A DNA stretch of 64,000 nt from Isoetes taiwanensis. Lineage: Eukaryota > Streptophyta > Lycopodiopsida > Isoetales > Isoetaceae. The stretch covers positions 22,294,065 to 22,358,064 of the forward strand of contig JAJEKV010000013.1 in the NCBI GenBank assembly GCA_021234155.1, written 5' to 3'. This document shows, one piece after another, positions 10,796 to 63,555 of this stretch (positions are counted from its first letter, which is position 1; each line of letters begins with the position of its first letter). The position numbers and the translations under genes were made by a program. The notes under the pieces are model-generated. The model saw only the letters and a program-made list of their open reading frames with translations, had not been told where the DNA came from and made no database searches.

Positions 10796-13106
10796 TGTTG
10801 CCCTGCTATGGCAACATGGCAAAGTGCCATCAAGTCTTATTCATGTTGCAGGAAAAAGAAGATACTATGTTGAAGAACCAAGTGAAGACATTGAACTGGA
10901 ATCAAGGTCACACATTGAGAGGATCTAAGCATCTGGAAGTTTGGAAGACCCCTATGAAGTTGGCAAGCTATTAAAATGGTATCTTTTCTCCTTCATGTTG
11001 TCATATCTATTCCCCTACCTCACACTCCACATTTCCAACATTCCATCACCCCATACCACCATACATCTCACACATAGCCTTTTGTTCCATAGTTGACCTA
11101 CCACTACCTAAGGCACATTTTCAAAGTTGTTACACCAAAAGGATTGCCTAAGCATCAAGTTCTACATCATCTTTTGTCATCATGTCATTCCATTATCACA
11201 CACTCCACACCATGTGGCTAAAAAGGGGAGCATTTTATGCTAGCCAAAATACAAAAAAAGGGAAAGGAAAAGCTAAAACACGAGTTTGCCTAGTCACCAC
11301 CTCCAAGTGACATGGCATGATGACTAGATACATATCTCATCACTTACAAAGCCACATTGGTCCACTCATCATTTGCTACCTCCATAGGTCATTCACCAAG
11401 TTGCCACCTAAGCAACAAGTGTCCACATCACCACATCACTCCATACCATGACATCACTTAACACCATTACATCATTCCACATCATCACATCAACTTGCAT
11501 CATCAAATGATGACTAGGCAAATGTTGACCAAACCCAAAAGTTGGTCAACCATAAGATTGAAATGATTGACAAATGTGCCTATTAGCCTTGTTCTTCCTC
11601 CTTGCCACCTCACCAAATCCATATCTAATGCCTACTCACCCCATTCATTTTTTTTACAAAAAACAAAGTATTGCATTTGAAAATTTGATAATACCACCGA
11701 TAGCCCTCATGAAGCCATGCCACCGGCACAAAAATTTTGAAAAAGAGTGTGTATTGATCTTCTAAGTGGCTTTCTTGGGAACGTGCTTCATTTGAAAAAA
11801 TGGCAAAACCTACCTACATCTACCCCCCATCTATCTACCCTCATCCTCCTCACGCCAAGGCGTCCCCTCGCATGCCAAGTCGAAACACGCCGAAGCTTGG
11901 CGTGGGGAGACCACGTAATCAAGAGAGAGGAAAATAGCTCTCTATTTATACCTTAGCCTCTTTTTGATTTACCGTGGATAATTGCTCTCAAGAAAACTCC
12001 GAACCTAAAAATGTGACTTGCCAAGAACTTGTTTTTGTCGATTGAATCCCAGTAATCATTACATTGGCTAACCATTCCTGTCTGTTGCACCCAAAGAAAT
12101 GTCTAAACCAACCAAAAACATGGCCAAGATCCCCGAATTTGCCAAGATCCGTGGGAAACGTAGTTTTCAAAAGGGGATTCATTCGGCCGAGAAAAAAGTG
12201 TGGGCTTTTGCGCCGATTTACGCAAAATGGCACGAAGTGTGAAGTCTGAATTGATCTTTTGAGAGTTCCTCCCGCCCTTAAGAAATCTATCCCCGAGGCA
12301 CATTATGATCGATTTGTATCCAAAAATCATGATTTGTGTGTTTTAGAGATGTCTTGTTGATCGATCATCTTGATCATTAACATGATATCGAATGTGATGA
12401 CTTTGATTCGAAGTTTAATGAAAATCTGACCTTGGAAGATATCATTTGATGCATTTGTATTTGAGTTGACTCTAGTAAATAAAAAAAAAAAAACATATAC
12501 GCATTGGTTTGCATGCAAAGCTCCAAATTTATTAGTGCAATCATTTAGGTAAGGAAAAGCAAAAAATAGAGGAGAAAGATCAATCCATTGATATTCTAAA
12601 AATCACCTCATTTTTCATGGAGAATCGTGCTCGTACATGCTTCTTTAATTACACACCGAAGTTTTTGACCACGAAATAGCATGCCCTTATTGTGCGGGGC
12701 TCATATTCACTGTTTGAATTTGGTTGATCAAAAATCTAGTGCCATTTTCATTTGGCAAAATTTAGTGCCTTTCTCCCACCATTGACCAATTTCTGACTTA
12801 GTCAAGAATCATTATTTCTCGCCAACCGTGAGGACTCTTTGCATAGACTTTCTACAACACCTTCTTCGGATATTATTGTGGTATGCTATGCTAGTTTGGA
12901 TCCAAAATGTCGTAAGTACATTGATCTCGATTACTGTTAGAATAAGACTAGTTTTTGGCTTTTTTGGGAAACTAGTGAAATCTTGTTTTCCGAAGTTTAA
13001 GAACGATATCTCAAGACGAGTGATCACCTCAAGTGATCCTGAGGTCCTAGACCAAAATTAGAGCTTCTTTGACTGAGGTTGGTGGCTTAGCCGTTTGCCA
13101 TCAACA
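10796..13106 (+). repeat. 5' LTR of the Ty3/gypsy element
   Basis: The LTR is about 2.31 kb and aligns along its whole length with 19348-21680. It opens with TGTTG and closes with CAACA, the usual short inverted ends. It includes a cytosine-rich CACATCACCACATCA-like stretch near 11.4 kb and a run of A near 12.48 kb. Small open frames inside it are not genes. Confidence 0.8.
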
Positions 13107-19347: not shown

Positions 19348-21680
19348 TGTTGCCTGCTATGGCAACATGGCAAAGTGCCATCAAGTCTTATTCATGTTGC
19401 GGGGAAAAAGAAGATACTATGTTGAAGAACCAAGTGAAGACATTGAACTGGAATCAAGGTCACACATTGAGAGGATCTAAGCATCCGGAAGTTTGGAAGA
19501 CCCCTATGAAGTTGGCAAGCTATTAAAATGGTATCTTTTCTCCTTCATGTTGTCATATCTATTCCCCTACCTCACACTCCACATTTCCAACATTCCATCA
19601 CCCCATACCACCATACATCTCACACATAGCCTTTTGTTCCATAGTTGACCTACCACTACCTAAGGCACATTTTCAAAGTTGTTACACCAAAAGGATTGCC
19701 TAAGCATCAAGTTCTACATCATCTTTTGTCATCATGTCATTCCATTATCACACACTCCACACCATGTGGCTAAAAAAAAAAGGAGCATTTTATGCTAGCC
19801 AAAATACAAAAAAAAGGGAAAGGAAAAGCTAAAACACGAGTTTGCCTAGTCACCACCTCCAAGTGACATGGCATGATGACTAGATACATATCTCATCACT
19901 TACAAAGCCACATTGGTCCACTCATCATTTGCTACCTCCATAGGTCATTCACCAAGTTGCCACCTAAGCAACAAGTGTCCACATCACCACATCACTCCAT
20001 ACCATGACATCACTTAACACCATTACATCATTCCACATCATCACATCAACTTGCATCATCAAATGATGACTAGGCAAATGTTGACCAAACCCAAAAAGTT
20101 GGTCAACCATAAGATTGAAATGATTGACAAATGTGCCTATTAGCCTTGTTCTTCCTCCTTGCCACCTCACCAAATCCCATATCTAATGCCTACTCACCCC
20201 ATTCATTTTTTCTACAAAAAACAAAGTATTGCATTTGAAAATTTGATAATACCACCTGATAGCCCTCATGAAGCCATGCCAGCTGGCACAAAAATTTTGA
20301 AAAAAGAGTGTGTATTGATCTTCTAAGTGGCTTTCTTGGGAAACGTGCTTCATTTGAAAAAATGGCAAAACCTACCTACATCTACCCCCCCATCTATCTA
20401 CCCTCTCATCCTCTGCCAAGTGGCGTCCCCCCTGGCATGCCAAGTCGAAACACGAGCCGAGCTTGGCGTGGGAGACCACGTAATCAAGAGAGAGGAAAAT
20501 AGCTCTCTATTTATACCTTAGCCTCTTTTTTGATTTACGCACATTGGGATAATTGCTCTCAAGAAAACTCAGAACCCTAAAAATGTGACTTGCCAAGAAC
20601 TTGTTTTTGTCGATTGAACCGAGTAATCATTACATTGGCTAACCATTCTGTCTGTTGCACCCAAAGAAATGTCTAAACCAACCAAAAACATGGCCAAGAT
20701 CCCGAATTTGCCAAGATCCGGCGGAAACGAGTTTTCAAAGGGGATTCATTCGGACAGAAAAAGTGTGGGCTTTTGGCGCATTTGATTCTGGACGAAGTAC
20801 ACGAAGTGTGAAGTCGAATTGATAGAGTTCCTCCTGCCTTAAGAAATCTATCCTGAGGCACATTATGATCGATTTGTATCCAAAAAATTCATGATTTGTG
20901 TGTTTTAGAGATGTCTTGTTGACTGATCATCTTGATCATTAACATGATATCGAATGTGATGACTTTGATTCGAGTTTAATGAAAATCTGACCTTGGAAGA
21001 TATCATTTGATGCATTTGTATTTGAGTTGACTCTAGTAAATAAAAAAAAACAAACATACTTCTGCATTGGTTTGCATGCAAAGCTCCAGCTGCATTAGTG
21101 CAATCATTTAGGTAAGGAAAAGCAAAAAAAATAGAGAGGAGAAAGATCAATCCATTGATATTCTAAAATCTGCCTCATTTTTCATGGAGAATCAGGTGCT
21201 CAGACATGCTTCTTTAATTACAGACTGAGTTTTTGACCCTGGAAATAGCATGCCCTTATTGTGCAGGGCTCATATTCACTGTTTGAATTTGGTTGGATCA
21301 AAAATCTAGTGCCATTTTCATTTGGCAAAATTTAGTGCACTGTCCAGTCCATTGACCAATTTCTGACTTAGTCAAGAATCATTATTTCTCGCCAACCGTG
21401 AGGACTCTTTGCATAGACTTTCTACAACACCTTCTTCAGATATTATTGTGGTATGCTATGCTAGTTTGGATCCAAAATGTCGAGTACATTGATCTCAGTG
21501 CCTGTTAGAATAAGACTAGTTTTTTTGGCTTTTGGGAAACTAGTGAAATCTTGTTTTCTGGAAGTTTAAGAAACGGATATCTCGGACGCAGTGATCACCT
21601 CAAGTGATCCGGGAGGTCCTAGACCAAAATTAGAGCTTCTTTGACACGAGGTTGGTGGCTTAGCCGGTTTTGCCATCAAC
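19348..21680 (+). repeat. 3' LTR of the Ty3/gypsy element
   Basis: It is a direct repeat of 10796-13106, about 2.33 kb long. Most bases agree. The differences fall mainly at CG and CHG sites and as single-base length changes. It ends at the CATCAAC shared with the 5' LTR, after which the two sequences diverge. Confidence 0.8.
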
Positions 21681-25135: not shown

Positions 25136-27383
25136 CAGGGGGTTTTCTTTGTGTTTTTGTACGTTTTTCACAAAGGTTTTCCTAAGATTTCATGGCGTAT
25201 TTGAATGGATGTACTAATGCGTACATCTAGAGTGCACCATTTCTTAGTCGTTGATTTAGCTTTTTTTTTTTCAATGGTCCAACATCCAAGGGCTCACAAC
25301 AAAGCCCTCTTTTTTTTTTTAGGGCTGAACATGCAAGCCTCGTGGATAGCATTTTAGGGCATTCTTTGCCCTAAAAGCTTGGTTCTGCGAGCTTTAGTCT
25401 CCGGGCATCGGGTGCATCTAGGGTCAAAAAATTCATGGAAGTCGATGAACTTGGATCGTGATGCATTCTAGCTATGTAGTCTTGGAGTTGATGATGCATT
25501 ACGGCTATGGCGCGCTCGGGCTTTGCAAAATCGGCCGATAAATTCGGAAGTTCACATTTGAATTGATTTTAGCGAGAACCGCTCGGGCCGACCGTATAAT
25601 CAAAGGGAGCTAAACGGGGACAAAAGCTGAAGTCCAGCGAGAAGAGACGGATTCAGGTAGGATGAAAGCGGAAAGCGCATGGGAATCATTGTGTTCGCTC
25701 TGTTTTTGATCAATGCAGTTTTGAGCTTAAATGCGAGTTTTTCGGTCTTTATTATTTCTTGCATCGGGAGTTTGAGGCCTAGTTTCAAAGGAACCGCAAA
25801 TGTGACCTTGTCATTTTTAGAATCAAGATTTAGGTCTTTTGCAAATTCAACACATGAAGAAAATCTAAACGGCTGCAGATTTAGGCCTTGTAGCCGTGTT
25901 GCTTCTCAAGAACTAGGGATTCAAGCTTTGAATTTCGCTTGGGATTAATCCCTTTATATTCTTTCAAAGCTTTTGATTCATAGCTTTTACCCAATAGCCC
26001 GAAGTTTCCGGAGCTGATAAATATTCTTTGTATTCTTTATAAAACCTTCACGAGGGATTCAAATCCTCAATCTTTGCCTATATCATTGATAGTGGGCTTA
26101 ACTAAAGAACTATTGTGGCGACATAAGGATCCGATACCCACGAAGGTATGCCCGATTTTTATCTTTGTAATGATACAAGAAAGAAAGAACATTTGATTCC
26201 TTCTCTATCTTGATTAATTTCTGTGATGTATAAGCATATCAAGCTGCTTCTTGGACAGGGTAAATATCAAGAATCGGACGACAAAAATAGGCCATACACT
26301 AGCATAAGAAGCCGATTTGGCTGTGGGCTCATCCTTGATAAAAATAATCGAACCCGGCAGAGCTAAAGCGCCTCTCTAAGGAGATATTGGGTCGGATTCA
26401 GAACTAGTTGTCTGAGAGGTAAGCTTGAAGTTATGATAGACTGAACAAATTCATGATAGAGGGAACATTTGCTCTTAATCTATCTTGATTATTTCTATGT
26501 ATTGATCAAGCAATGTTATGATAAACCTGCGAACAGGGGCAAACATTCAGTAATTTCCACAAATCATAAATTTGTTTGTCATATCCACTATGGCAATGTA
26601 ATGCGGTTGAACAAACCTATTATGAGGTATTTTTGAAAAATAAAATAGTTCTCGTTCATTCTTTCTAGATTCTATCTTGGCTTGCCAAATAGTATTCTTT
26701 GGGTTTCAATAGCTTACTGGCAGACCATCTAATTTAGTGTCTACTAAAAGGGAATGGATATGCCTTGCTAGATTATTGGTCTATTGAAATAATGACGGAA
26801 GGAATGGGAGAATCGGGCTATATGGAATTAGAGGAGGAGCCCAAACTTCACGCCAAGTCTACATGGGGCGTTTAAGTTTTATCGTATTGAATACTAGTGG
26901 TTTTGGTCAAAGATTTGTCATGTTCTTGGAAAGTTTTTTGCATATGTCTTTGCTCAAAATATGCTAACGCTAATGTATTCTACGTACTATTCTCTCTATG
27001 CGGGTTCGAAAAATTTTGCAAGATGTTGATATCTCTAGTAATGCTTACGATGGCAATTGCACAAACAACTAAGGAAGATCAAGTTTGTCGCATGATCCAT
27101 TTCTATTTTATATGTGTAACTACCAATGCCTCTGATTTCTATTCATCCAAGACAAATTGGCGCGTTGTTGCAACAATGCTATTTTAGAATGATTTCAAGA
27201 CAATTTGAGCGCATTGTTACAATGTTGTCATTTTAGAGCCTATAAATTATGCAATTTAAAATATATGGTTTGCAATAACACTTCAATCATTTTGTACTTT
27301 TATTTTATTTTGATTTTTATATTTTTCTTTACCTCGAAGTTTATCTATTTTGTTTTTTTTTTGTGTCCGAAGGGTAAAAATTT
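25136..27383. other. No recognised gene
   Basis: Sequence after the Ty1/copia fragment. It has T and A homopolymer runs near 25.26 and 25.31 kb, and weak frames at 25679-25948 and 26897-27187 without motifs. It may contain decayed remains of the same copia element, but I could not show that. Confidence 0.35.
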
Positions 27384-27848
27384 TAATATAACAACCAACA
27401 TAACTACTATGAACATTAATTAACACAAACCATTACATTAGACATGTTTAAAATTAAATTCCCCTTAAACCCCTTTTTGTTTGGGTGCATATTCACACGG
27501 GTGACGTGAGGGGCGGCCGAGAGCCCACAATAATTATGTTTTGCATGTACAAAATCAACACCATATAGTATATTGCACGAAATCTTATAGTATTTTGCAA
27601 ATCTTGTTATACAGTATAACAAATTCTATATATCCATATCCCACAAACGAGGAACTTTGTGTACGGTGTAGATTAAGGAATAAGGGGTGAATATGCCTAT
27701 CCAACAGCTCTCGTTGCCCGAAGTCACCCCCCGTTTGAATATGCACCCAAACAAAAGGGGGTTTAAGGGGGAATTTAATTTTAAACATGTCTAATGTAAT
27801 GGTTTGTGTTAATTAATGTTCATAGTAGTTATGTTGGTTGTTATATTA
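27384..27848. mobile_element. Foldback MITE with long inverted ends, copy 1
   Basis: An inverted-repeat element of about 465 bp with no coding capacity. The inner inverted repeat opens with ACACAAACCATTACAT at 27423 and closes with its complement at about 27810; it runs about 75 bp inward to TTTGGGTGCATATTCA. Outside it, an outer inverted repeat of about 38 bp (TAATATAACAACCAAC) continues the symmetry to 27384 and 27848. A second copy of the inner element lies at 63180-63555. The superfamily is unknown; TTAA beside the inner ends is part of the palindrome and not proof of a target repeat. Confidence 0.8.
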
Positions 27849-28099
27849 CAACCAACAAGAAAAAGTAAAAGACTTGGGAAGTTGGAAAGATCCTCCTCCA
27901 ACTATTGCAAGGTTGTAATATCTTTTCTTTCAAACAGTTTTCCTTGGTTTCTTTAGTTTTTCTGTATATGTTTTCTTTCTTCGATATCTTTCCATGTGCC
28001 CATTTCTTGCCCCATTCTTTGATCCATCCCGTGACCTATTTGAGTTTTGTAGAAGGTCGTCATAGTTCCACTATTTTCAAGCTTTGGAAAGAACAAAAG

Positions 28100-33599: not shown

Positions 33600-33889
33600 G
33601 TTTTTGTCATGGCATGAACCTAGTGAAGGTGTTTTTTTTCTAAATTCATTGGGCATTTCAAGATGAAAAACTTTCTAATAAACAATCCATTGATGTTGGT
33701 GTTGGAATGTTCTGAATGTTAGTGCATATAGAAGGAGTTATATTTGATGCAAGCAATTCTAAGGACTTTCTGTTTAGGACCATTGAATTTTTAGTTATGG
33801 GTCTTCAAGAGAATCCAAGAACTATGGGAAGAGAAGTGTGGGAAACATGGGGTGGGTAATAGGTGTTTATCCTTCCTATTGTAATGCAG

Positions 33890-34030
33890 TGATCAATTTT
33901 TGTTCTCATCGAATTTCTTCCTTAAAAATTACCATCGCATGACACGTTACATTCATGGCATTTATGGCGGGCATCTAATTATGAGCATATGACATGGTGC
34001 ATTTATGGCATTTATGGCATTTATGGCGGG
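33890..34030 (+). repeat. GCATGACACGT / GCATTTATGGC repeat, lone relative of the 40 and 43.8 kb ends
   Basis: The order TTCCTTAAAAATTA, GCATGACACGTTACATTCAT and repeated GCATTTATGGC resembles the inverted repeats at 40.28-40.41 kb and 43.80-43.96 kb. The orientation is that of the 43.8-kb copy. It could be a solo end or a deleted relative of the element between those repeats. Confidence 0.5.
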
Positions 34031-34259
34031 CATCAAGCCCTGAGACCAGTCGAAAAATAAACGAAAAATAAAAGACAAACCCTGCGCCCGCTTTTGCCCG
34101 GTTTGCCTTGGATTTGGGAAGTTGGATCCAGATCCAATGAGATACGCTCCTCGGCCAAGCACCGTTGTAGGTTTGCAATGAAGACTTCGACGGATCTTTG
34201 TTTGCGGATGATTCCTACCCGGACTGGTGCCAATTTTGTTTTGTTCTAGCATGGCACTG

Positions 34260-36356: not shown

Positions 36357-37745
36357 TGAAGGAAGGAAGGAAGGTTCTTTTATCGTCCGCGGAGGCCAAT
36401 CGGCCCTATGGGACCCAAATTACACCAGTGCAAAGAAGCCCGGTTGCTACCCGGATTAAACCCCTAGGAGGGAAAACCGTCGCAAAGAACAAGCATCTTG
36501 TGACTATACAAATATACATATACACATGAATTCCGGCACCTCGGATAGGGCGCCCGGGCGAGGTGAGTCCGCAGATCCAAAACCTCCCCGGAGGTAGGAG
36601 CCAAGGGATCGAACCCGGCAGATGTCTTGGTGTAGCTCGTGGCAGAGCGGCACCATGTCACACCAAGAGAATGTAGCCAGCCCAACCGAATTACAGCTTC
36701 CACACTGAAGCGTGCATGTCTTTCATCCTCAACAACCCCGCCAGGCAACACCGACAAGCCTGTGCCCCGCCGCCTCCAACCCACCTGACCATGCCTCTGC
36801 CAAGATGGTGGGGCCCCCTGCTCACTGATGCGATGATCCTTCGCTTTTCTCATGGCAACTGAACGCGTAGAGCTGGGCCTCGAACTGTAAGCGATGGGGG
36901 CTTTTGTAGTGTGCCATCTTTTACTGCCTGCAGGCTGATGGTCCCAGAGCTTCCTGTGAAACAAGCAGTCCAAGTACCCTCGCCTCATCCTCCTTCCACG
37001 GCTGCCTCCTCAGGAAAAATCTTGATGCATTCTATGTAGGAGTCTACGTTCCAGCGCGCCAGCCACTGGGCTCTCTTGTCCTTCCAACAAGCCCTGAGTC
37101 GTTGCGGGCTCATCGCCACAGCGTAAGCCAAGTGCGGGAGCCGAGTGTCGCCCATGCTGGCCACCTTCTGGAAATAAACAATGTGTCTATCGAGGGCCGC
37201 ATGCTGCAGGGGCATGAATCCTGTCTCCTGCAACAAGATCTGATATGGAACTGATATGGACCTGCTCTAAGTCGTTCCAAGTCGCCAAAGACACCACTGG
37301 GCCCCACACCTCGACCCCATACAGAAGAACTGGCTCCACCAGTGCCCGGAACAAATGTGACTGGTGGCCCCAGTCATACAGCTCTGCCCTGTGACTATTG
37401 TTTTGCATTGCGTACAGCGCCTTCCAACCTGCGTTCACCCGAAGGCGAATGGATACATCCCAATACATTGAGGACGGAAATTCCACCCCCAGGTACTTGT
37501 AGCTGGGTGTGACCTCCACCATCTGTCCCTCCTTGATAAGTGGCCCTTGGTGCTTGGATGACGTGAGGAGGATATGAGGACCACCTTAGTCTTGGCCAGG
37601 TTGACACGCATGTCCGTCGCCTGGCAGAATGTGTCCAGGGCATCTAGGTGTGCCTGCATGCCCTCTGGTGTATGGGACAAGAGGTCCACATCATCCGCAT
37701 AGATGAGCTGCCGGATGAAGGATAACGCACCATAAAAGAACAATT
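36357..37745 (-). mobile_element. LINE copy 3, RT to 3' end, 5'-truncated
   Basis: This is the least decayed LINE piece. On the minus strand it opens inside the reverse transcriptase with SFIRQLIYADDVDLL at about 37.70 kb, continues through DMRVNLAKTKVVLISS, then YKYLGVEFPSS, ALYAMQNNSHRAELYDWG and ALVEPVLLYGVEVWG (37187-37522), and RACWKDKRAQW (near 37.09 kb). Near 36.75 kb a VEDERHA stretch fits the C-terminal zinc-binding region. A few frame shifts remain. The 3' end carries AGGCCAATCGGCC-type sequence on the plus strand and a GGAA (CCTT on the minus strand) tandem tail at 36357-36373. Truncation just before YADD is typical of incomplete reverse transcription. Confidence 0.85.
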
Positions 37746-40140
37746 GGGAAGGGCTTATGTAATCTTATTCTCAAAGGAGATTCATAGTTGAGATTCTCAA
37801 TGGAAAAATCGAGTTAGTGGGACTCCCAATGGTTGTCGATTACAACACCCACGGAGCACGAGGCAATAGTGCAAGTTGAAGTCCTGTGTGTTCTTAGATT
37901 ATACAAGTTTGTTCTCAGACAAATTGATACATGTTCACTACCAGACGAATTTCATGTTGTAAATGAGTAGACAAAGGATGCGAAGACAGGGATAGAGGAT
38001 ATGAAACCAGAGGGATTGGGAAAGAAAAATGTTTGTGGTGGACTTCTGCAATCAAGTAATGAAACCTCCTTGGAAAGAATAAAGGAATTGGATCATCACT
38101 TAGAAAATGCAGTATGAACACAAAATATTTTGCTCCTGTGTGCAGGTGAAATGTTTCCACACAATGCCATATATAAGACATTGGAAATAAGTATAAAACA
38201 AACTCTTCAGATGTAAAAGATGTATTTGGCAGGTTATCAGATGTTTATCATTATTCTGGAAAATATGGAAACTTCCAAGCTTAGATTCATCTAGTTCAAT
38301 CAATTTTGCAGGTTCAGAACTGTGATCGTTTTGGCTTAATATCAAACCTTATTTAAGAAGAGTTGGACAAAAGAAATGTTCGTGGCGGTCTTGGCCGCCG
38401 CAATAAATTTCTTGTAACTTTAATTTACAAAACTATTTTGCTTGGATTCCTCATTTGGATGCATTATATAGGTCCCAAGGGTTTTTTCTTTTTTTCCATG
38501 CAAAAAAGGGCCTTTTTCCCCCTCTTCCCCTATTTGCTTCTTCAAACTAATCCAGGAACCGTATCTGGAGAACCGTATCCTTCCCCTAATCTAGTGATGG
38601 TTGTCGTATCCACCAGATGAAATGCTTTTGGAACGGAATGGAGGGAATCAACGAATTAAAGGATTGGGGTTTGTACAGAAGGGACTTTTGAGGAAAAAAA
38701 TCTTCTTATGATCCCGCTTTTTTTCCTCCCCTTTGCCGTCATAGAAAACCTTCACCCTTCAAACCCATAGCCTATCCTTCTACTTCAAAACCCAGGCCTA
38801 CTTTTCTTTCTGAGCCCTTTTTGCTGCAGGGTGAGCATCTGCTTTGAAATCTAGATCACAGGGAAGCAATCTCTAGTAAATCCATTCTTGCATCAAATTG
38901 GGTCATAGTCCGCTCAACCGACTTGGGTTTGCCTCTCAGATTCTAAATTCGCTACATGCCTATGTATGAAGAAGCTCTCGTCCGCTTTATAGTCTTAAAC
39001 ATCTAAGAAGAGATATTGGCAATTTGGCATTGCCTTGCACCGCAATAAATGCGTAAATTCCATGACTGATTAACAACAAAGAAAACAGCTTTCTTGGTCT
39101 TCTTTATTAGCTTTGTACATATGTTTATGCAACCCATTTACACAAACATCATCCCTTCTAGATTCTGCAATCAAATACTGAAGTAACCTCAATCGCCTGC
39201 ATAAATCTTCATAGACCCAAACGGGCATGAGATCACCCGCAAGAAAACAAATTAAAAACTCCCAATGGTTCTTTGAATGATGATTCGTCCAACAACAACT
39301 CGTAAGCCCGAAAAATCATTGTCTGCGAATGGATCTATCTAATCAAACCTCCATCGCCACAACACAAGCATATTTATAGGTTCTCAACCCTAGAAAAATT
39401 TCTAGCTATGAGATTCTGTTCCTGGCCGCAATCTATGGCTGCTATGGTTCGAAATTGAATGGATTGAATTGAAACAGAGAACTAAATACAGGGCACTTCA
39501 AGAAAAAAAATAGAGTATACTTACCCTGCTGCGCAATCAAGTGGCTCGGTGGTGGCAGCGATACATCGATTGCTCCAGCTTCTATTGGATTCTTTGAGAT
39601 CTTCATTAGCGCCAATGCAAATCGAGGATGAACTTACTATAGTAAGACCTTAATTTGGAGGAATGGTCCTTTGTTGATACTTTGGTTAGGGCCGTGGCCT
39701 CGTGAACTGAGCACACAAGGCGAGATATCGCTCTAGCTAGAAAAGAACTTAAATCGTTTGGCAAGCCATCCCTGACTCTGGGTCAGTTTTGATGCGAGAT
39801 AGAGGTGGGTTATGTTGCTGAAAGCCTGGCGAGCGCCGGACTTAGGTGCCCAATAGGAAAATCCTCGCCATAACCTACACGCCATGATCAAATCATGCCT
39901 CTTCACGTGAAGCCCATTCTCGTGTGTGCCAAGAATGCGTAAGAAATGAGCACAAAGGAATTGAAGTCTTCGTAATGATTTGGACATAGTTTGATCCGTA
40001 AATTGCATCCAATCTAGGGAGATTTTTGGGTTTTGAATAGGCACGAGAGGAATCGGAGGAAGAATTCCAACCGCCCAAATCGGGCAAAGGCTATTTCGTA
40101 GGGCTATTCTACACGAAGCCTACCACCCCTTTTTCCACGG
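37746..40140. other. No recognised gene
   Basis: Weak frames only, for example 39733-40044 minus. A palindromic GGCGGTCTTGGCCGCC motif near 38385 is shared in inverted form with 61.34 kb. Confidence 0.4.
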
Positions 40141-40279
40141 AGGCGTGGCTCGCTTTTTGGGGTCCGTGATCAAATCCGTAACTCAACAACTCAACATCAC
40201 GAAATATTCGAAGTTCATTAATGGCGCCATAAATGCCATATTCGAGTTCATTAATGGCGCCATACATGCCTCGACATCT

Positions 40280-40405
40280 AACGTCACCGACTCAATGAAA
40301 TATTCGAGTTTATTAATGGCTGCAATAAATGCCGTATAATCAATGAGTGCACACGTGCCATGTTTTAAGAATTTTTAAGGAACAAAATAAGGGAGAACAG
40401 AAATG
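40280..40405 (-). repeat. Left inverted repeat flanking the recombinase gene
   Basis: Read on the minus strand it gives TTCTCCCTTATTTTGTTCCT, then AAAATTCTTAAAACATGGCACGT, CTCATTGATTAT, GCATTTATTGC, CCATTAATAA and CTCGAATATT. The same order is found on the plus strand at 43.80-43.93 kb. The two copies therefore face outward on each side of the tyrosine recombinase gene. Confidence 0.7.
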
Positions 40406-41562
40406 GACACTGCATTAGATAGGAAGGATTATATTGGTTATGTACTATGGAAGACACATCTGGAAAAGATTCTGACATATAATTTTTTTTCAAGGTGGCT
40501 CGCCGCATTTGCGGCAAAGGCACGAGTGGCGCAGCCGCGAAAAGCCCACCGAAAAACTTATACCCGTAATCTTGACAAAGGCATTACTGAATGTAATGAA
40601 TGTTTGGCCGATATTACGTTAGGTAATGTTCGGTTTAGCCATTACGCCGGGTAAGGCCACTTGGCGAAGCCCTGAGGGCGAGCCACTAAGCCGCACCCCT
40701 CGCAATGCCTATGCCCCAACATTCCCCGGAAAATGTTAGGGGGTAGGCCACATTTCGCACGGTGGGGCGAATTTTGGGACTAAATGTTAGGGGACAAAAT
40801 TTTTGACAGGCCTCCACATTTTTGCTATGGCGATGGTCCGTATATGGCGTCCGTTAGCGCTTAGCTTCCTCGGGTCGATTTTTGCTTGTCGGATCATATT
40901 TTTTGTGTGTTATGGACCGCCTAATGTTGATTTTGGCGGTAGTGCCTCGATTTTGGAGCATTTTCGCTGGCGCCCGGCATCTTTTGTGTTGATTCAGCCA
41001 GTTTCACAAGATTTTCGAGAGGTTTACTATGATTATCTTTCGATTTTGATGATGATCATTCGATTTTGACATGATTTTTGTGAAATCATGCGCCCTAACA
41101 TGTTTTTCTTGCGTTTTTTGTCGCCTGGAGGTACATGCAACAGAGAGTATCATTTCTTGTGAAAGATCTTGCTATTTTGGCGAAATCTTCGTGTAAAATC
41201 AATGAAGTTTGTTATTTTTCCATGTTTCTACGAAAACATTACCGATCCGCGGTGCTTTTTTACAGCTCATTCTGCATTGGAGTAACATGCAAGGCTATCC
41301 CGACCTTTCTTTTCTTTGCTTTTGTAGCTTTTTGCAAGCCTATCCCGACCTTTCTTATGTATATCCACTTATTTGCTATGCGTGATTAGTATGTTCCGTG
41401 CAAAACTTTGTGCTTCTATCTTGAGCTTTTTATGCTATCCCTAATATTTCGCGCATGTAGATCTGGCCCGGATGGCTAAATACCTTGTTTTCATGGCCTT
41501 TTTATTTTTTCTTTGTGAACATTATCGCTATAAGGTTCTCGTTTCTTTGTCCGGCCTCAAAG

Positions 41563-43114
41563 ATGGATGCTTCTCAGAGATCAGCTAGGTGCTATAGATT
41601 ATCGAGTGCCATAGATGATCGATGGTCACCGAGACGTGGCATTCCTTTGCCATTCTTTCGGGTGTTGATGAGGACGGTTATCAAGACGCTGATAAGTTTT
41701 GGAAGCCTTTCCTTCGGATAAGATTGATGAGTTTGTCAAGGAAGTAAAGGACGTTGATTGGTATAATGTGGAGAATAAGGATAAGGATGAGTTTTTAGCT
41801 TTGGATGAAGAACCGATGAAGGAAATTAACTGTGGTCGGAATAGGTCTATTGGGATGTCTATTTGGGCCAAAAACATTTTGATAATTGGAGGAAGGCATT
41901 TGGTCTTGATACTAGTGTTCCTATCAAGATATGATATGCCGGTGAAATTCATGCTTCAAGTGAAAAAGAAGAATGGAGATCCAGATCCGGCCGGTGTAAC
42001 TTTTTATGCAATTTTTAATTTGGTTTTATGTCGACTGCTTTGTGTTTGCATCCTTAGTGTTTTATATACAGCTATTGGAAGAATGATCGAAGCATCAAGA
42101 GAAAAGGATTGAGAGACAGCAATCGAAAGTGAGGTTTAATATAATTACAAATGAAATCTTTACTAGAGCTACGTGATGCTTTTGTGTTAGCCGCCAGAGG
42201 TCTAGGGTGCAAGGTGTTGGGACTAAGACCCTAGGGCACCTTCCCGCCGGGCCAGCTTTAGAAAGGATCCGCTAGCGCATGTGGATCATCGATGACATTT
42301 AATCGTGGGTCGCCGAAACGCCTCGTGTTTTACCTTTGTTCAAGGTTTGGGATTAGGGCAAATGTAACTTTATAATTTGCTAGATAATCGACCTTTCTCT
42401 CGCAAAGATGACCGTGGTGAGTTTATAGAATACAAGAGAGGGAGAGTAAGAATTATCGTGTAACCGCAACAAGATATGATAGCAAGCCATTTTAGGAGCC
42501 CTGCTCGCATGCATGAGGCAGATTTTGTGATGACTTAAGCAATATGTTAGGCATATGCCTGCCAAAGATAATGATGAACCTAGGAGTTTGTTTCTGACTT
42601 CTATCAACAGGCCTGCTGGAAATGTAAGTAGTTTGAATTTTTTTATGTTATTGCTTAGGTTGAGAATGAACTTTTATTACTGATTGTTGCTTTTCAGGTC
42701 TGGTATTCCACCAATAAAGTTGGACTAAAGATGATAAAATCTTGGCTTAAGACAATGGGGTCTTTAATTGATCATGGGGAGATCTCGAATAAATCGGGAC
42801 GCGTTGCAACTGTTACACGATTGGCGATGGCAGGTGTTCCTGCTGAGGTCGGTATGAGAATCACAGGGCATCGATCACTTGAAGCGTATGAAAAGTAAGT
42901 TGATTGTATAATTTCTGAAAAGTAATTTCTGATTGTATAATGTTATAATTTGTTGATAATTTTTGTTTCTTAGGTATGACAGGATGAAGGTATTCAGATG
43001 CGTGCTGCTATGTCTATTATCTTTAATCCAAGCATCGAAACGGTGCTCCGAGGACTTATGAATCAAGAAATAGCCGCTGAAATTGAGAAGAAACAAATCA
43101 ATGATTGCGCTTAG
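41563..43114 (+). pseudogene. Crypton-like tyrosine recombinase
   Basis: Tyrosine recombinases cut and rejoin DNA through a 3'-phosphotyrosine. From ATG 41563 the N-terminal part reads FVKEVKDVDWYNVENKDKDE, then RSIGMSIWAKN, then VKKKNGDP with a TLYAIFN-like continuation, a pattern of Crypton/DUF3504-type proteins. An apparent intron (42624-42697, GTAAGT to CAG) is followed by VWYSTNKVGLKMIKSWLKTM, NKSGRVATVTRLAMAGVP and ITGHRSLEAYEK. A second apparent intron (42895-42973) splits the tail, and YDRMK follows; the frame ends near 43114 after IAAEIEKKQIND. GHR with the nearby tyrosines (42887-42889 and 42975-42977) fits the catalytic end; the usual His of HxxR is Lys (42791-42793). Exon 1 has several frame breaks and its first catalytic Arg was not identified, so I list it as broken. 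GHR, and no RT nearby, argue against a DIRS element. Confidence 0.65.
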
Positions 43115-43637
43115 TTCATCTCCTCGCATCTCGTTTTTTTTGTTGTCGCTGATCCAAAATGACAATTCTTTCCGCCAAGTATTTGTGAAGGAGTCAAGTT
43201 CAGTTAAGGGGAAGGAAATTGCTATGCTAGCAATTTGTGTTTCTAAGGCTCCAGGTTTTGGAAATGACAAAGAAAATGCTAGTTTCTATGAGGGTATTTC
43301 TCGATGAAGCTCTATTGGATTTGAAAAATCCCATCGCCAAAAACTCTTGTCACCGTAATTCTCTCGCAAACACGCTTCGATTTTCCTTCTTAGGAAGTGT
43401 GAGCAACTGTTTGTTCATTCAGTTCACTGATGCCAGTCAGATCAAAGATGCACTCCACAAATATCATGGGCAATCTTGTAATTCTGATAAGTTTATCTGA
43501 TAAAACTTGTTGAATGCCTTTAATGGCAATTGAAACTTCTTTTTTTTTAATGAAACTTGTAATCAATTGCAGATTGCTTGAAGCACTGCAAATTTTGAAT
43601 GGAAACTGGAATTTTGAATCGAAAGTGAATGTATTGG

Positions 43638-43694
43638 TGAATTGTAATTTTGAATGTATTGGTGAATGTAATTTTGGTGAATGTAATTTTGGTG
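43638..43694 (+). repeat. Short GGTGAATGTAATTTT tandem repeat
   Basis: About three to four units of 15-24 bp built on GGTGAATGTAATTTT lie between the recombinase gene and the right inverted repeat. Confidence 0.7.
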
Positions 43695-43804
43695 CTGGCA
43701 CAAGCACTGCCAGATGGCACTAGCTAGGACAGCTGGCACTAGCCCTACCAAGTGTCACAGAATGTCATAGAAAATTATCCTTCCTATGTAATTTAGTGTC
43801 TAAC

Positions 43805-43960
43805 TTTCTCCCCTATTTTGTTCCTTAAAATTCCTAAAGCATGACACGTACAAGATGCATTCATTGATTATAAAGCATTTATTGCGTTCCATTAATAACC
43901 CTCGAATATTGTGTGCATTCATTGATTATAAAGCATTTATTATGGGCATTAATTTCGTGA
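43805..43960 (+). repeat. Right inverted repeat flanking the recombinase gene
   Basis: Outward order TTCTCCCCTATTTTGTTCCT, AAAGCATGACACGT, CATTCATTGATTATAAAGC, ATTTATTGC, CCATTAATAA and CTCGAATATT matches the complement of 40280-40405. The CATTCATTGATTATAAAGC block occurs twice (about 43858 and 43917). No clear target duplication was found at the outer edges. Confidence 0.7.
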
Positions 43961-44019
43961 TTTGAGGCATTTATGAGCATTTATGGAGGAAGATATGAGC
44001 ATTAACATAGGATGACACG

Positions 44020-44520
44020 TTGCATTCATCGCATTTATGGCGATTTGTGCACTTTGCATTTATTAAGTTTATTAATACACTTTGCATTTTTTTTTGTGGC
44101 AATACAATTTTTGCATTTTTTTGTGGCCATTTTGGGATAATCACTTTGAATTTATTCCAATGGCATTATCAAAGGACCACTGAAGAACATGTGAACGGGT
44201 GAAAAGCCGCCATGCAGCAAACCGACTTGCACGTGAGCGCTGACCGATTTATTGTAAATCGCCATTACTATCTTTTGCATTTATTATACCATTAATACGC
44301 TTTGCATTTATGGCGCCATTAATACGCTTTGCATTTATTACGAGTTATCAAAGCACGACATGTGTGCACTTTGCATTTATTGCGCTATTAATACCCTTTT
44401 GCATTTATTGCGCCATTAATACGCTTTTGCATTTATTATGCCATTAATACGCTTTGCATTTATTGCAATTATCAAAGCACATACATGTGTGCACTTTGCA
44501 TTTATCATGCCATTGGCAAT
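44020..44520 (+). repeat. Degenerate GCATTTATT / GCCATTAATACGCTTT array
   Basis: The pair of words CTTTGCATTTATT and GCCATTAATAC recurs about every 25-40 bp, most regularly at 44290-44460. The same words occur inside the inverted repeats at 40.3 and 43.85 kb and at 33.96-34.03 kb, so the array is probably an amplified subterminal part of that element. Confidence 0.7.
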
Positions 44521-46343
44521 TTGTTAGAAGATATCAATCCCAATATATATAGAATCTTAATGATATCCATTTTAGGATAATTATGGATATGAAATATATA
44601 TCGAATGATATTAATGATTACACGCGAAGTTGTGATATAGGACACTCATAAAATATAGCCCTAGATTAGTCATGTGTGTCGATCATCCAACAAAACTCCA
44701 TCTTATAAATAGAAGGCCTTCTTATTGTCTCGACGCATTGAGAGCACTTTAAGAGCTATTGTGAGCACTTCTCTTCTGCTTCACTAATTGCATGCAAGGT
44801 AAATATTCTCCCATTTTGTAATTTCTAAATTAGAGTTAGAATATAAGATCTTACGAAGTTGCTTCACATCAATCTAGAATCACTTGGCCATTGCAGAAGA
44901 GAATGTTGGACGTTAACTGGAGTCCAACCGCACGCTTTGAAAAATGTTTCATGCCGGCCACGCGATAAATTTCTTGTAGGATGTAAAACAGATGATAATA
45001 ACAAGAAATGTGGCCTACCCTAACATTTCGTCCACTGATAGCCCGACACGTGGCATCAAAACATTCTTTCATGGCTATTGCGGAGGACGGGAGGCTACGG
45101 CGAATCAAAGGTGTATATGGTGTATGCTAAGCCGGAGCTTGAAGGCTGAAGCTATGGTGGAAGTTTTTTCCCGCTTCAAAGGTCTTTCATAGCCTCAAAC
45201 TCAAGGTTTTTCGAAGGAGGTTGCCGATAATGGCAGTAAAAAAAAAAATGCAAGACAACAGCCTGGAGGGTCGTAATCCAAAATGCATGCTTAGAGATGG
45301 CTGAAGGCCGATTAGAACAAATTGGTTGCCTCTGCAATAAAATATGCTGGTAATGGAGCACGGGATCGGAACTCGCCACTACAAAAGAAATAGGCTGGTG
45401 ATGGAGCTGAGGACCGGAATAGGGCTTTTAGAAACGGAGCCCACTACTCTATAGCTCCCCGAAAGTTGCAAGTTGAAGAACCATAGCTCGCAGGTCACGG
45501 GCGGCAGATCATAGTAGAGAGGATTCTCTAGAACAAGGCAAGCAAGAGGAAATGGTGGTGCCTCTCCGTAAAAGCCGAAGCACATTTTATTTGAATAATA
45601 ATGCAGTAATTTCGGCCAAAAGTTTTTTGTCATTGTTCTAAGATATGTAACGTATGAGGTACAAGGTCATGCTAGGGCATCAAAGAATATATGTAAAATG
45701 CATATGGACAACATGAGTAACATAGAGACACTAACAAATTGTAATGGCAAACTGTCCCATATCCTAGCGCCAAAATGCAACCAAAGAAACGTGGCATAAT
45801 GTGATTGAGCTGCTCCATTGGCAATGCCTTTTGCGCCTTACAATTTCTAGGTCTGCCCACTAATAAGTTGAATTCCAACTCATGTCAGTGTTAAAAAAAA
45901 AAAAAAAAAAAAAAGCATGTTCGAACGTTCTTCAAGTTTGGACTGTTCGATTTCCTTTCTCACTGGAAAAGCAAACTGCATAGTAGTTTGTATTCCCTGA
46001 ATCTGCACCAGAAGAAAAAGCCCAGAGCCAGAAAGACATTGCAGATGAACTAAAGGGATGTGTTTGCAACTGCCAAACATTTTGCAGAATGAAAATAAGC
46101 ACTTTTAACTCTAGTCAGGCAAATATTGCCCAAGCATATATGCAATCTGCAGTTAGAAAGTTAGAAAGACTAAGAGAGTGTTTCAGAAATAAATTATTGC
46201 TCCAAGAGGTCATAATCATCAAACTAAAACAAAATTTGCACCATGCTAATATACATCATGTAGTCCAAGAATAGAATTTCATGTGACCAATGGAATGCAT
46301 AAACAATTAAAGACGCTGCATCCATCACAAATGAAGATATCTT
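44521..46343. other. No recognised gene
   Basis: Frames at 45176-45379 and 45379-45633 (minus) have no family motif. A poly(A) run of about 22 lies at 45893-45914. The part next to 46343 is the 3' flank of SMO2. Confidence 0.4.
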
Positions 46344-49257: not shown

Positions 49258-50216
49258 ATCAACTCAAATCACATCATCTAAAGTAGGGTAATATGTGGTA
49301 ATGCATGGAATCAATTTCTAACAACATGGGCAAACATGAACAATCTAAATGTCAGTAGTTCATGGTATCGGCTTTGAAAGTAGTTGCAATGTTCTGAAAT
49401 GTTGGAAGATGTTCCAATCATATTCTAGTTCTTACAGTCATGTTGATCTGCTCATGTTCTAAATAAGTATATTGCATTCTAGTTTCTACCAATCTTAGAA
49501 AAGCACCAAGTAATCCTTCTATTATAATTCTAGACATCTTCTTACGTTACATAGAGAATGATGCAGCAATGATATAGAAAATAACCAATGACATGCTTCA
49601 TTAGCATATCTAAAATGCACTATTGGAAAAAATGGATAAACAACAATCACATATCTTAAAATTGGAAATAATACAATTCTGTGCAACTATCCGAAGTTAG
49701 ATCGGAGTGCTTTTTGGTGCTTGGAAAGCTTGCTCCATGATCTTTCCAATGGTGTATAAATTGCAGGGGTTCTTTGGCGGATGATTACCATTTTGGATCC
49801 GATTAACTCGACCCTTTCAAGGATCTTGCACTGATAGTATTGTTTTGCTCATATCTAGAGCATCCAAACTCGAATTGGAGTGTTCTTTGGTGCGTTAGAA
49901 AGCTTAATCTTTCTAATATTGTGCATATTGAGGGCCCGGGGGGGGGGGGACTAATCACGATGTAGATGTCCGCTTCATTTTGGCCCTCCGATGTCGATGG
50001 CTCCTTCCATTTCTTTGCAAAGAACAAGGGGCCCTTCAATAGTGCATGTTAACCCGCTTCTTATCACTTTAACACCTCAACCATAGCCGCCAGAGTTTGA
50101 TCATCACCCCTTGGAGTCTTTAAGATCCATGAACAAAGATTAACATATAAAAAGGTGAGATCACTCGACTTCTCAATAAAGATACTCATTATAGACATTA
50201 GATATTGGCTAGGGCA
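49258..50216. other. No recognised gene
   Basis: Contains a G run of about 10 near 49940 and two imperfect repeats built on TTGGTGC...GAAAGCTT (near 49715 and 49887). Frames such as 49803-50039 minus show no motif. Confidence 0.35.
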
Positions 50217-50452
50217 TTGCATCTTACTCTCAACGAGACAAGCATTGTCCAATGCAAAGTTCCATAGGTGCTGGCAGTTCAGATGGCTCAGATGAACCTC
50301 CAAGGTTCAACACATGGTGCTGATGTGGAGCAGATTGCATCTTACTCTCAACGAGACAAGCATTGTCCAATGCAAAGTTCCATAGGTGCTGGCAGTTCAG
50401 ATGGCTCAGATGAACCTCTAAGGTTCAACACATGGTGCTGATGTGGAGCCGA
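50217..50452 (+). repeat. Near-perfect 118-bp tandem duplication
   Basis: Units 50217-50334 and 50335-50452 differ at only about two bases and start TTGCATCTTACTCTCAACG. Such identity points to a very recent duplication or to an assembly artefact. Confidence 0.9.
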
Positions 50453-50899
50453 TTGCATCTGCTACCAGTGTTGGCAGTGCATATTGCCTAGAAATACATT
50501 CAACATGTGTTGTAGGTTCAACTTTGGCTAATGAAGGGGAGCGGATTGTTGAGGCATTGACTCCAGAAGATTTATACAAGTTCCCTCGTCCAACCCGTCT
50601 TTCTCTCAATTTCAATATGCTTCAAATAGACTTAAAGAACAAGTTTGACATTCTCACTGCTATTTTGCACATGCAGCAACAAGAGATGATACAATTTAGA
50701 TGTGTATTGAGGTGATGTGAAACATAGCGAGCTTTGAAAGCTTGCCTACAGTTCCGCCATTTGGCGCTTGATAAGATGATCTCCTGCTCGCAAGTCAAGC
50801 GCAGACGTTCCACTATGGCAGCCCATGGGGGCTGTCATATTCCATCTATGGCAAAAGTCAGATTACTTATAGATGAGAAATGTGTATGAATCAAATCAA

Positions 50900-51659: not shown

Positions 51660-52510
51660 TGTTATATATTAGCAATCTTATTCACAAGCTTGTTTATAAA
51701 AGTGCACATCTCCACTAAATTTTGAGGTTGATCTAAGGCATAAATTGGTCCGATAACCGACACCATGTATGTTTATCATATATGGGTTTATGCCATTTCC
51801 AAGATGGATAGCGACATCAGTAATGCGTTCTATCATACTCGAAGCCCCATCAGAGCCAAATGCGACGAGTTTGTTTGTGTTTAGCTCATATTCTTCCACT
51901 TTCGCTACAATTGCATCATAGATAGATGCTGCAGCTCCATTAACCACCTTTCTAATACAAAAAAAAAAAAAACTAGTTATAACTTTCGGCCTTCCAAAAA
52001 AGTGGTAAACATAATCAAATGCTTCGTGGTGCTGATGTCTGTGGATTCATCAACCATTGATCCAAAGGCTACTTCTCATCCTTTCCAGAATGGAGGCTTT
52101 AATGACCGTGGTGATGCTAGCAACAAAGTTAGCACATGCTTTCATATTCTCATAGTGACCGATCAGTTGCTTACAACCACATTTGTATATCAAGGCCACA
52201 AGCCTTTGATATTTTCGAAATGCAAAATCCTCCTTTGCTACCATGTACGCACAATTGAACAGATTGGCAAGTGCATTGTTTATGAAACCAGTTAAAGTCA
52301 CCAGAGTGGAAGCTTTAATACGAATTTCAATTGAAGGTCCAAGTTTAGAGACTTCTGATGTTTCAGCCAGCATAAAGCACTTGGAGAAAATGTGCAAAGT
52401 TTTGGCACGTTGATACAGGTACATGCCAAGAATTTCAAAGGGATGGTGAAGATGAGGATATAGAGGATGGAATAGATCTGAATATTTTTGGACCTCAACA
52501 AATGTCACGA
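51660..52510 (-). pseudogene. hAT-type transposase fragment (DUF4371 region)
   Basis: The RNase H fold of hAT transposases is recognisable on the minus strand. In order: KEDFAFRKYQRLVALI, GHYENMKACANFVASI, KASILERMRSS, then VDESTDISTTKHLIMF with the first catalytic-type Asp, TFLEGRK, NGAAASIYDAI and KLVAFGSDGASSM with the second Asp, then NPYMINIHGVGYRTNLC. The BED finger before it and the C-terminal hATC dimerisation domain are not seen. Frames change at least twice. The fragment ends about 160 bp upstream (in plus coordinates, to the right) of the half-LINE. Confidence 0.8.
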
Positions 52511-53394
52511 ATCTCCACCTTCCATGTTAAATATAAATGGCATATTCTAATTTCATAGTTGCATTAAAGTATGGCAACCCAAAAGAAACGCAACGAAAAA
52601 AGTGCTCACATTCCCCAGAAAATCCCCCATTGAGGAACGGGGGACTCGAGAGCAATGGGTTATTTTCTTTGCAATGGGGAATGATTAAACAAAAGGGGAG
52701 GATTCTTGAACAAAAAGGGTATATTCTAATGGGGGAATTAGTGGAAATAGAAGATTGCAAATACACAAAGGGGTATTTTTAAGAAAGGGGGATTGGGTCA
52801 AAATTGATTTTGCAAACGGATTGGGGTCTTTTTAAGAAAAGAGGAATAAGATGTTGGGATCCCATGATATAAGTGGTGCAAGTTTGATGTGCTTTGATGA
52901 AGTTCAGGTACATTCTAAGCTAGATTTTAATTTCGCAATTCCTACACAATGGTATTGATTCCATAAGTATAGCTGTATTTTAGAATTTAAATATTAGTAT
53001 AGCATAAGAGGTTATGGATAGAAAGATAGGGAATAATTGTAGTTTGTCCATGGGTTATCAGTTGCAGTTGCACCACTTACGCACGAGATGCCAATTGAAC
53101 ATTTGTCTAAATTTTGCGTACAAGGTCCCATCAAAATCCTTTCCAAAGAAATCAAATCTGCAGCGGTAAAAATGTTATTGTATGGACTTGAGCAGCATGG
53201 TCAAGCAGAATTTTGTGTATCAAATTTGTTTCTTGAAGTCTGATCAATTTATTACTGTTGTTTCTGAAGTAATAAAAAATCTTATCAATTTCTTACTAAT
53301 TAACTCTGATCAATTTGCTACTTATCAACTTGTTTTTGAAATGAGTATAATCTTTCAAATGATAACAAAGTAGGTATTATCTTATGAATCATAA
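52511..53394. other. No recognised gene
   Basis: Rich in GGGGG and AAGGGG words near 52.63-52.85 kb, which recur near 53.57-53.70 kb. I could not prove an element. Frames here have no motif. Confidence 0.35.
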
Positions 53395-62800: not shown

Positions 62801-63178
62801 CCTCCACCGAATCAAGGCGATGCAAGAACGGCGTAAGTCTTTGAGCTCTAATTTTAGGGCAAAGCCACCAGCTCCGCCATGGCCCCCATTGTCGGGCCTT
62901 CAAACAAATGATTGATCGTAGCATAGTCAGCTAATGAACGAGATTCATCCACAAAAACGTGGCATTGAAACGCGAGCTTGGATTGCGGCGCAGAACAAGA
63001 AAAAAAGAAAAAGAATAATTACAAAATGATTTATATATGTTCTGATAGTTTAGTTTATGCTACATAATAGTTTTTTTTTTTTTATATGCTACATATTATT
63101 AATTACACAATCAATATCTAGCATAATATCGATGATTTGTGCTGAAGGCCCCAAAGGGGCCAAAAATACATTAGGTAT
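59831..63178. other. No recognised gene
   Basis: Frames at 61833-62261 and 62111-62359 have no motif I know. A palindromic GCGGCCAAGGCCGC lies near 61337. A T run occurs near 63072. Confidence 0.35.
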
Positions 63179-63179
63179 A

Positions 63180-63555
63180 ACACAAACCATTACATTCCAC
63201 ACTTAAAAATAAAATTCCCCCTTAAACTCCCGTTTGTTTGGGTGCATATTTACATGGGGGGTGATATAGGGCAGCGAGAGCTCCTAGAATCATATTATAC
63301 ATGTACGAAATCAACATCATATAGTACATTGTCTCAAATCTTATAGTATTTTGCAAACTGTCTTATACCATATTACAAAACGTGTATAGACATACCCCAC
63401 AAACGAGGACCTCTATGTACGTTCTAGATCGAGGAATAAAGGGCATATATGCTTATCCGGCATCTCTTGATTCCCGGAGTCACCCCCGTGTAATATACAC
63501 CTAAACCAACTAAGGGGGGATTTTATTTTTAAGTGTGGAATGTAATAGTTTGTGC
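63180..63555. mobile_element. Foldback MITE, copy 2
   Basis: Inverted ends open ACACAAACCATTACATTCCA and close with its complement at 63555. The interior (GGGGTGAT, ACATCATATAGTACATTG, ATCTTATAGTATTTTGCAAA, CCCACAAACGAGGA, GAGTCACCCCC) follows the same order as the interior of 27423-27810. It lacks the outer inverted repeat of copy 1. No coding capacity. Confidence 0.8.

Follow-up and report, generated by a model that had tools for sequence, protein, structure and literature searches.

A locus on the forward strand of a 64,000-nucleotide stretch of contig JAJEKV010000013.1 (the 64-kb window analyzed here) raises the question of whether a tyrosine recombinase (YR) of the DUF3504/Crypton class is, or was, carried by a land plant. 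In the sections of Kojima and Jurka 2011 cited here (PMC3212892), Cryptons are catalogued from fungi, animals, and stramenopiles, and DUF3504 is derived from the Crypton YR. A preliminary description had proposed a gene of this class at the locus. The data, which come from one copy within the window, are best explained by a decayed and apparently dead remnant of a DUF3504/Crypton-class YR in an apparent land-plant nuclear genome, a reading to which we assign a probability of a little under 60%. The remnant most likely stems from a DNA transposon of Crypton type, or else from a gene that descended from such an element.

Identification of a Tyrosine Recombinase Domain

The best-supported exon, covering the catalytic C-terminal half, spans 42698-42894 (+ strand, frame 2) and gave both profile and pairwise matches. 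It encodes VWYSTNKVGLKMIKSWLKTM from 42698, NKSGRVATVTRLAMAGVP from 42788, and ITGHRSLEAYEK from 42860, all on the + strand; these motifs, together with VKKKNGDP farther upstream (41960-41983, +), were found where the preliminary description had placed them. The preceding exon piece, LKQYVRHMPAKDNDEPRSLFLTSINRPAGN (42534-42623, +, frame 0), aligns, below the cut-off, with the DUF3504 profile at its C-terminal end. A degenerate DNA motif, N[HK]SGR..TGHR, was present at a single site in the window and in none of 100 shuffles; since this motif was derived from the same sequence, the result states uniqueness only.

In profile searches, a 136-amino acid C-terminal read-through matched two PHROG profiles of integrases, phrog_9208 at E = 4.6e-4 and phrog_1 at E = 1.6e-3. 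The 71-amino acid core gave E values of 0.011 and 0.038 with the same two profiles, and a longer read-through matched PHROG integrases at 8.8e-4 and 0.023. When one reversed and nine shuffled decoys were searched, a match of any kind was returned for 4 of the 10 and an integrase for none, the best E value being 0.097. In four framings, the Pfam Phage_integrase profile (PF00589) was matched at 0.036, 0.096, 0.22, and 0.05, all below the curated cut-off, and the sole NCBIfam match was a sub-cut-off one to integrase GmtZ (0.087). The open reading frame (ORF) at 42659-42898, taken alone, matched no Pfam family.

Weak matches only were obtained by tblastn against 50,697 phage records (best 35 bits, E = 0.1) and 72,556 plasmid records (best 36 bits, E = 0.5). 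An integrase or recombinase annotation was carried by 8 of the best 10 of the 31 phage records matched and by 14 of the best 15 of the 160 plasmid records matched. An AlphaFold model of the main exon alone (mean predicted local distance difference test score 63.7, predicted template-modeling score 0.32) was not used for a fold search. The catalytic C-terminal domain that marks the YR superfamily was detected by PHROG profiles, with decoys negative. Judged by sequence, the C-terminal half (42534-42985) is a YR domain, and the window very probably encodes, in some form, a tyrosine recombinase. The preliminary description had named the lack of a profile match, or closest matches outside the YRs, as evidence to be set against it; neither outcome was observed, although the Pfam matches were all sub-cut-off.

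Intron-like Stretches and Predicted Catalytic Residues

Two intron-like stretches flank the main exon. Putative intron 1 (42624-42697, +, phase 0) is 74 nucleotides long, runs from GTAAGT to CTTTTCAG, ends in CAG, and has a GC content of 0.27 and a T content of 0.50. Putative intron 2 (42895-42973, +, phase 2) is 79 nucleotides long, runs from GTAAGT to TTTCTTAG, ends in TTAG, and has corresponding values of 0.20 and 0.51. The GC content of the three adjoining pieces is 0.40-0.44. The traceback of a frame-tolerant alignment placed a jump at 42624-42694, coinciding with the first of these stretches. The two GT-AG introns of the preliminary description are plausible.

The main exon encodes a KxxR motif (42791-42802), in which Lys replaces the first residue of HxxR, and the His of GHRS (42869-42871). 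Splicing of intron 2 would yield ..GHRSLEAYEKYDRMK and bring a Tyr (42975-42977) to the position His+9. The distance from the Arg of KxxR to His is 23 residues and that from His to Tyr is 9, equal to the spacings in L005, a phage-type integrase recovered by a viral scan with DUF3504 references. A candidate for the first catalytic Arg (FGIRAN, 42355-42357) lies inside a weakly supported upstream piece. In poxvirus type IB topoisomerases, Lys occupies the position of the usual His, and by analogy the Lys of KxxR may have been used catalytically in the window recombinase.

An intact enzyme would be expected to cut and rejoin DNA through a covalent 3'-phosphotyrosine link. Its predicted catalytic set comprises the candidate Arg of FGIRAN, the KxxR motif, the His of GHRS, and the Tyr that lies at His+9 once intron 2 is spliced. 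The element would move by excision and re-insertion, probably via a circle. We infer the element type and this mode of movement, as we do the N-terminal half and the death of the gene.

Placement in the DUF3504/Crypton Class

A reconstructed human DUF3504 domain sequence served as the reference for the class. Against Pfam, this sequence matched DUF3504 (7.4e-25), Phage_integrase (1.2e-8), and QRICH1 (1.3e-6, just sub-cut-off), in order. When it was used as a tblastn query against all 64 kb, the best match was 42698-42892 (E = 1.2e-4, 27% identity), and the next best had an E value of 1.2. The score of the C-terminal piece was reached by 0 of 2000 shuffles of that piece, and 24 of 87 columns are invariant between the catalytic half and the reference. 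A frame-tolerant alignment of the whole region scored 112, against a maximum of 69 in 150 dinucleotide shuffles, with the C-terminal exon carrying the score.

A permissive traceback, run with no null, supplied the frame LKQYVRHMPAKDNDEPRSLFL.. for the piece before putative intron 1. For a 101-amino acid piece in this frame, the Pfam matches were limited to two families, Phage_integrase at 0.05 and DUF3504 at 0.19 (12.2 bits), both in register and in order; a longer read-through in the same frame gave DUF3504 alone (0.045, 14.3 bits), again in register. The curated cut-off of DUF3504 (PF12012) is 29.7 bits, and the window matches stay below it. With the earlier frame choices, DUF3504 was not among the Pfam matches at E ≤ 10. 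In pairwise comparison, the C-terminal piece matched the DUF3504 reference at 38.5 bits and gave no match with L005. Because of the reference, the in-register Pfam matches, and this pairwise result, the sequence is assigned, without a tree, to the DUF3504/Crypton class rather than to generic integrases. The Crypton/DUF3504 layout claimed in the preliminary description is accordingly borne out by profile and pairwise matches for the C-terminal half and is suggestive only for the N-terminal half.

CryptonA and the animal DUF3504 genes (KIAA1958, QRICH1, ZMYM2-4, KCTD1, and WOC) share with the window the catalytic C-terminal layout and the order DUF3504 then Phage_integrase, a likeness to CryptonA that was seen through the reconstructed DUF3504 reference and not through a CryptonA sequence. 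The window differs from them in its apparent land-plant host, in its intron-like stretches, in the lack of any intact frame found, and in its KxxR motif, which departs from the R-H-R-Y set described for Cryptons. It also encodes a Tyr at the right spacing, whereas the catalytic tyrosine is lost from animal DUF3504 genes in the account of Kojima and Jurka cited here (PMC3212892). According to the same sections, CryptonF and CryptonS of fungi, oomycetes, and a diatom are, like the presumed window element, YR-encoding DNA elements but have distinct protein domain structures; they are known here by description only (PMC3212892). The ALOG domain genes of land plants are reported, in part of the literature, to descend from an element with a tyrosine recombinase; in the window, by contrast, the best-preserved part is the catalytic domain.

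The Upstream Half and the State of the Gene

The preliminary description had read a gene from 41563 to 43114. The span concerned (41564-43114, +) runs from a putative start, the ATG of MDASQRS, to a TAG, and this stop codon was verified at 43112-43114. No intact frame was found at the locus, where gene models were not searched exhaustively, and the proposed gene is not supported in that form, its candidate pieces lying in changing frames and separated by stops.

On the + strand, the candidate pieces upstream of 42534 comprise an N-terminal (core-binding) piece, DMPVKFMLQVKKKNGDPDPAGVTFY (41933-42007, frame 2; suggestive only), a piece ELRDAFVLAARGLG..GSPKRLVFYLCSRFGIRANVTL (42166-42372, frame 1), which contains stops and may open the catalytic domain, a piece YNLLDNRPFSRKDDRGEFIEYKRGR (42371-42445) in frame 2 and thus in a different frame from the one before it, and a piece at 42442-42492 read by eye in frame 1. 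The last piece (42974-43114, +) encodes YDRMK in frame 0 (42974-42985) and then, if the tail is coding, EGIQMRAAMSIIFNPSIETVLRGLMNQEIAAEIEKKQINDCA and the stop after a change to frame 2 (42986-43114). Read by eye, the candidate parts follow one another in frames 2, 1, 2, 1, 0, 2, 0, and 2, with stops between or inside them. The pieces change frame near 42371 and 42442, and because they overlap there, these changes are not introns.

High-scoring segment pairs with the DUF3504 reference were obtained at 41948-42007 and 42088-42360, both with E = 21 and both on the same strand and in the order of the reference. The upstream part alone scored 67, against a maximum of 64 in 150 shuffles. The permissive alignment contains 14 frameshifts and 3 jumps, values that depend on the penalties and do not count mutations.

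Several results weigh against the locus being a DUF3504/Crypton remnant. The N-terminal piece is barely significant (50 of 2000 shuffles score as high) and matched nothing in profile searches; the middle piece, taken by itself, lacks significance (395 of 2000). One of 126 unrelated window tiles also scored 67, tying the upstream part, and the traceback (no null) bypassed the VKKKNGDP piece and took an upstream path different from the by-eye reading. No match of the window pieces reached a curated Pfam cut-off, a 268-amino acid read-through of the whole catalytic domain gave no Pfam match, and searches of PDB sequences with window pieces gave nothing or a chance match to myoglobin (0.074). The QRICH1 sequence from the PDB gave no signal on the window, the DUF3504 reference was itself a reconstruction and not a database record, and peptide and degenerate-DNA scans of viral and prokaryote collections yielded nothing related to the window protein. 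Neither element ends nor a second copy were found, with one locus in 64 kb, and inverted repeats (see below) flank the pseudogene, whereas animal Cryptons are described without terminal repeats in the cited sections of PMC3212892. A Crypton would be expected to have direct repeats of 4-6 bp, and no terminal inverted repeats, at its ends. Four other candidates from the viral and prokaryote scans (L001-L004) were rejected as chance matches.

Because of the shuffle tests, the tied tile, and the differing traceback, homology in the upstream, N-terminal part is graded as suggestive. The well-supported part (42534-42985) is free of lesions, except for an in-frame stop just before 42534. The locus is nevertheless most likely a pseudogene, because of the weakly homologous upstream pieces and the change of frame after 42985 if the tail is coding. 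An intact YR ORF, which in a Crypton would serve as the transposition protein, was not found in the sole copy, nor was an intact ORF of the kind that, fused to a host protein, would mark a domesticated DUF3504 gene. Since no intact frame was found, the locus is filed as a remnant and not as an active element.

Alternative Origins

The locus might instead represent an integrase captured from a giant virus, a polinton-like virus, a bacterium, or an organelle and later split by introns and decayed. We consider this unlikely, although the profile matches are to integrases in general and generic integrases nearly equal DUF3504 (35-36 versus 38.5 bits, a rough comparison in which queries and programs differ slightly). 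Phage and plasmid integrases (PHROG 9208, PHROG 1, and L005) have in common with the window the KxxR/HxxR-to-His distance of 23 and the His-to-Tyr distance of 9; what separates them is the lack of a pairwise match with L005 and best scores in the collections slightly below that of the DUF3504 reference. YR genes occur in cryptophyte polinton-like viruses, and a DUF3504-like gene is reported, in the cited sections of Kojima and Jurka, from a green-algal mitochondrion (PMC3212892). However, the DUF3504 profile was matched in register, if below the cut-off, and the two intron-like stretches point to a sequence that has resided in the nucleus for a long time. Furthermore, the viral scans returned nothing related to the window protein, with the surroundings not systematically searched for viral genes.

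A less likely origin again is suggested by the repeats around the remnant. An imperfect inverted repeat brackets the pseudogene, with a left arm at 40299-40435 (-) and a right arm at 43771-43910 (+), the latter followed by tandem-repeat-rich sequence to ~44505. Aligned as 40299-40435 versus 43910-43771, the arms share 79% identity across 144 columns (E = 4e-26), and tandem repeats lie on their outer sides. Under this reading, the pseudogene would be cargo within a plant transposon that has long terminal inverted repeats (of Mutator or foldback type, for example), extends from ~40204-40435 to 43771-44505, and was moved by another transposase. The cited part of PMC3212892 describes a Fusarium Crypton that is fused with a Mariner and bears inverted repeats. 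By contrast, a third copy of the arm (33869-34036, +) has no partner seen nearby and shares the inner boundary (TCCTTCCTAT), and because of this the arms may be a dispersed repeat separate from the recombinase. In addition, a target-site duplication was not found, there being no common 8-mer between 40050-40230 and 44460-44620. A perfect 16-nucleotide inverted repeat, GGGTAGGCCACATTTC, was also observed at 40741-40756 and 45005-45020, inside the main arm on the left and outside it on the right.

Derivation from a DIRS or Ngaro YR retrotransposon, decayed and with its reverse transcriptase lost or out of range, is improbable. An element of this kind would encode a reverse transcriptase and an RNase H along with the YR. 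These elements usually have Trp at the third catalytic residue, where the window has His (GHRS), and no reverse-transcriptase ORF was recognized by eye among the 57 ORFs (≥50 amino acids) overlapping 39000-46000, most of them without a profile search. DIRS elements are present in green algae according to the part of Mhiri and colleagues 2022 used here (PMC9033089), but the YRs of DIRS and Ngaro are reported, in the cited sections of PMC3212892, not to match DUF3504. Chance resemblance, or a gene other than a recombinase, is equally improbable: no single-family score is more than modest and the upstream half does not reach significance by itself, but several searches, with a decoy control, converge on one class.

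Genomic Setting and Occurrence in Land Plants

The window contains PPR repeats (7484-9344, -) that change frame and look degenerate (PPR_2 at 1.5e-23 and 5.4e-16; E-motif at 0.0086, sub-cut-off), a RING-H2 gene (4.1e-14), and a fatty-acid hydroxylase gene (Pfam FA_hydroxylase, 3.6e-9), the nearest piece of which lies 3.3 kb downstream on the opposite strand. The hydroxylase, called SMO2 in the preliminary description, may be a methylsterol oxidase; Pfam gives FA_hydroxylase only. These predicted neighbors support a land-plant setting, in agreement with the plant neighborhood described previously.

The expectation that such a recombinase would be out of place in land plants fared unevenly against the literature. 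In its favor, Mhiri and colleagues 2022, in the part relied on here, give six transposon orders of land plants, with Crypton not among them and DIRS left out (PMC9033089), and a 2020 Arabidopsis review states in the relevant part that Cryptons are not described there (PMC7385966). On the other side, a 2015 survey, as excerpted, has Crypton among the superfamilies present in all groups studied, including land plants (PMC4438587), a Dracaena survey tabulates 24 Crypton pieces totaling 1,719 bases (PMC6294377), and a rapeseed paper includes Crypton among its types of transposable element (PMC8245426). The section on plant transposable elements of a 2024 review also names Crypton as a subclass (PMC11630846). 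In the portions of these surveys and repeat tables used here, the plant uses of the term appear to be labels, no description of an element being seen. No paper announcing a land-plant Crypton was present among the literature matches listed, as far as their excerpts extend, and no literature was found linking Crypton with Ceratopteris, or Crypton and Repbase with Marchantia.

The window recombinase looks real but dead, and its type has seldom been reported from land plants. If verified, a Crypton fossil in a land plant would extend the range of the class and would inform the question of whether Cryptons have an ancient origin or have spread horizontally; annotators of plant genomes would also gain a concrete sequence to look for. 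The surprise is moderate: there is one apparently dead copy, and the Crypton label already stands in the 2015 survey and in automatic plant repeat tables, as excerpted. A wider proposal is that a lineage of DUF3504-class YR transposons peculiar to land plants, with introns and a K-x-x-R active site, exists or once existed, possibly in the form of elements with long inverted repeats, and that curated surveys overlooked it as mostly decayed copies remain. This is possible but doubtful.

Other Features of the Window

Just downstream of the pseudogene, an ORF at 43231-43497 (+) gave a sub-cut-off RRM match (0.013). Two direct repeats of ~2.3 kb, at 10796-13105 and 19348-21680, are 94% identical, lie ~8.5 kb apart, and probably represent the long terminal repeats (LTRs) of a retrotransposon. 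At 51681-52526 (-), two ORFs resemble a DUF4371/hAT-type transposase, with a Pfam DUF4371 match of 0.09 for one and none for the other. The ORF at 37190-37585 (-) gave no Pfam match and presumably resembles the C-terminal end of a LINE polyprotein. A foldback-like repeat at 27381-27851 and 63178-63554 has inverted arms of ~122 nucleotides with 97% identity to each other; a copy related at 77% lies at a distance of 35 kb. Finally, approximately two tandem copies of a 118-nucleotide unit, 98% alike, are present at 50216-50460.
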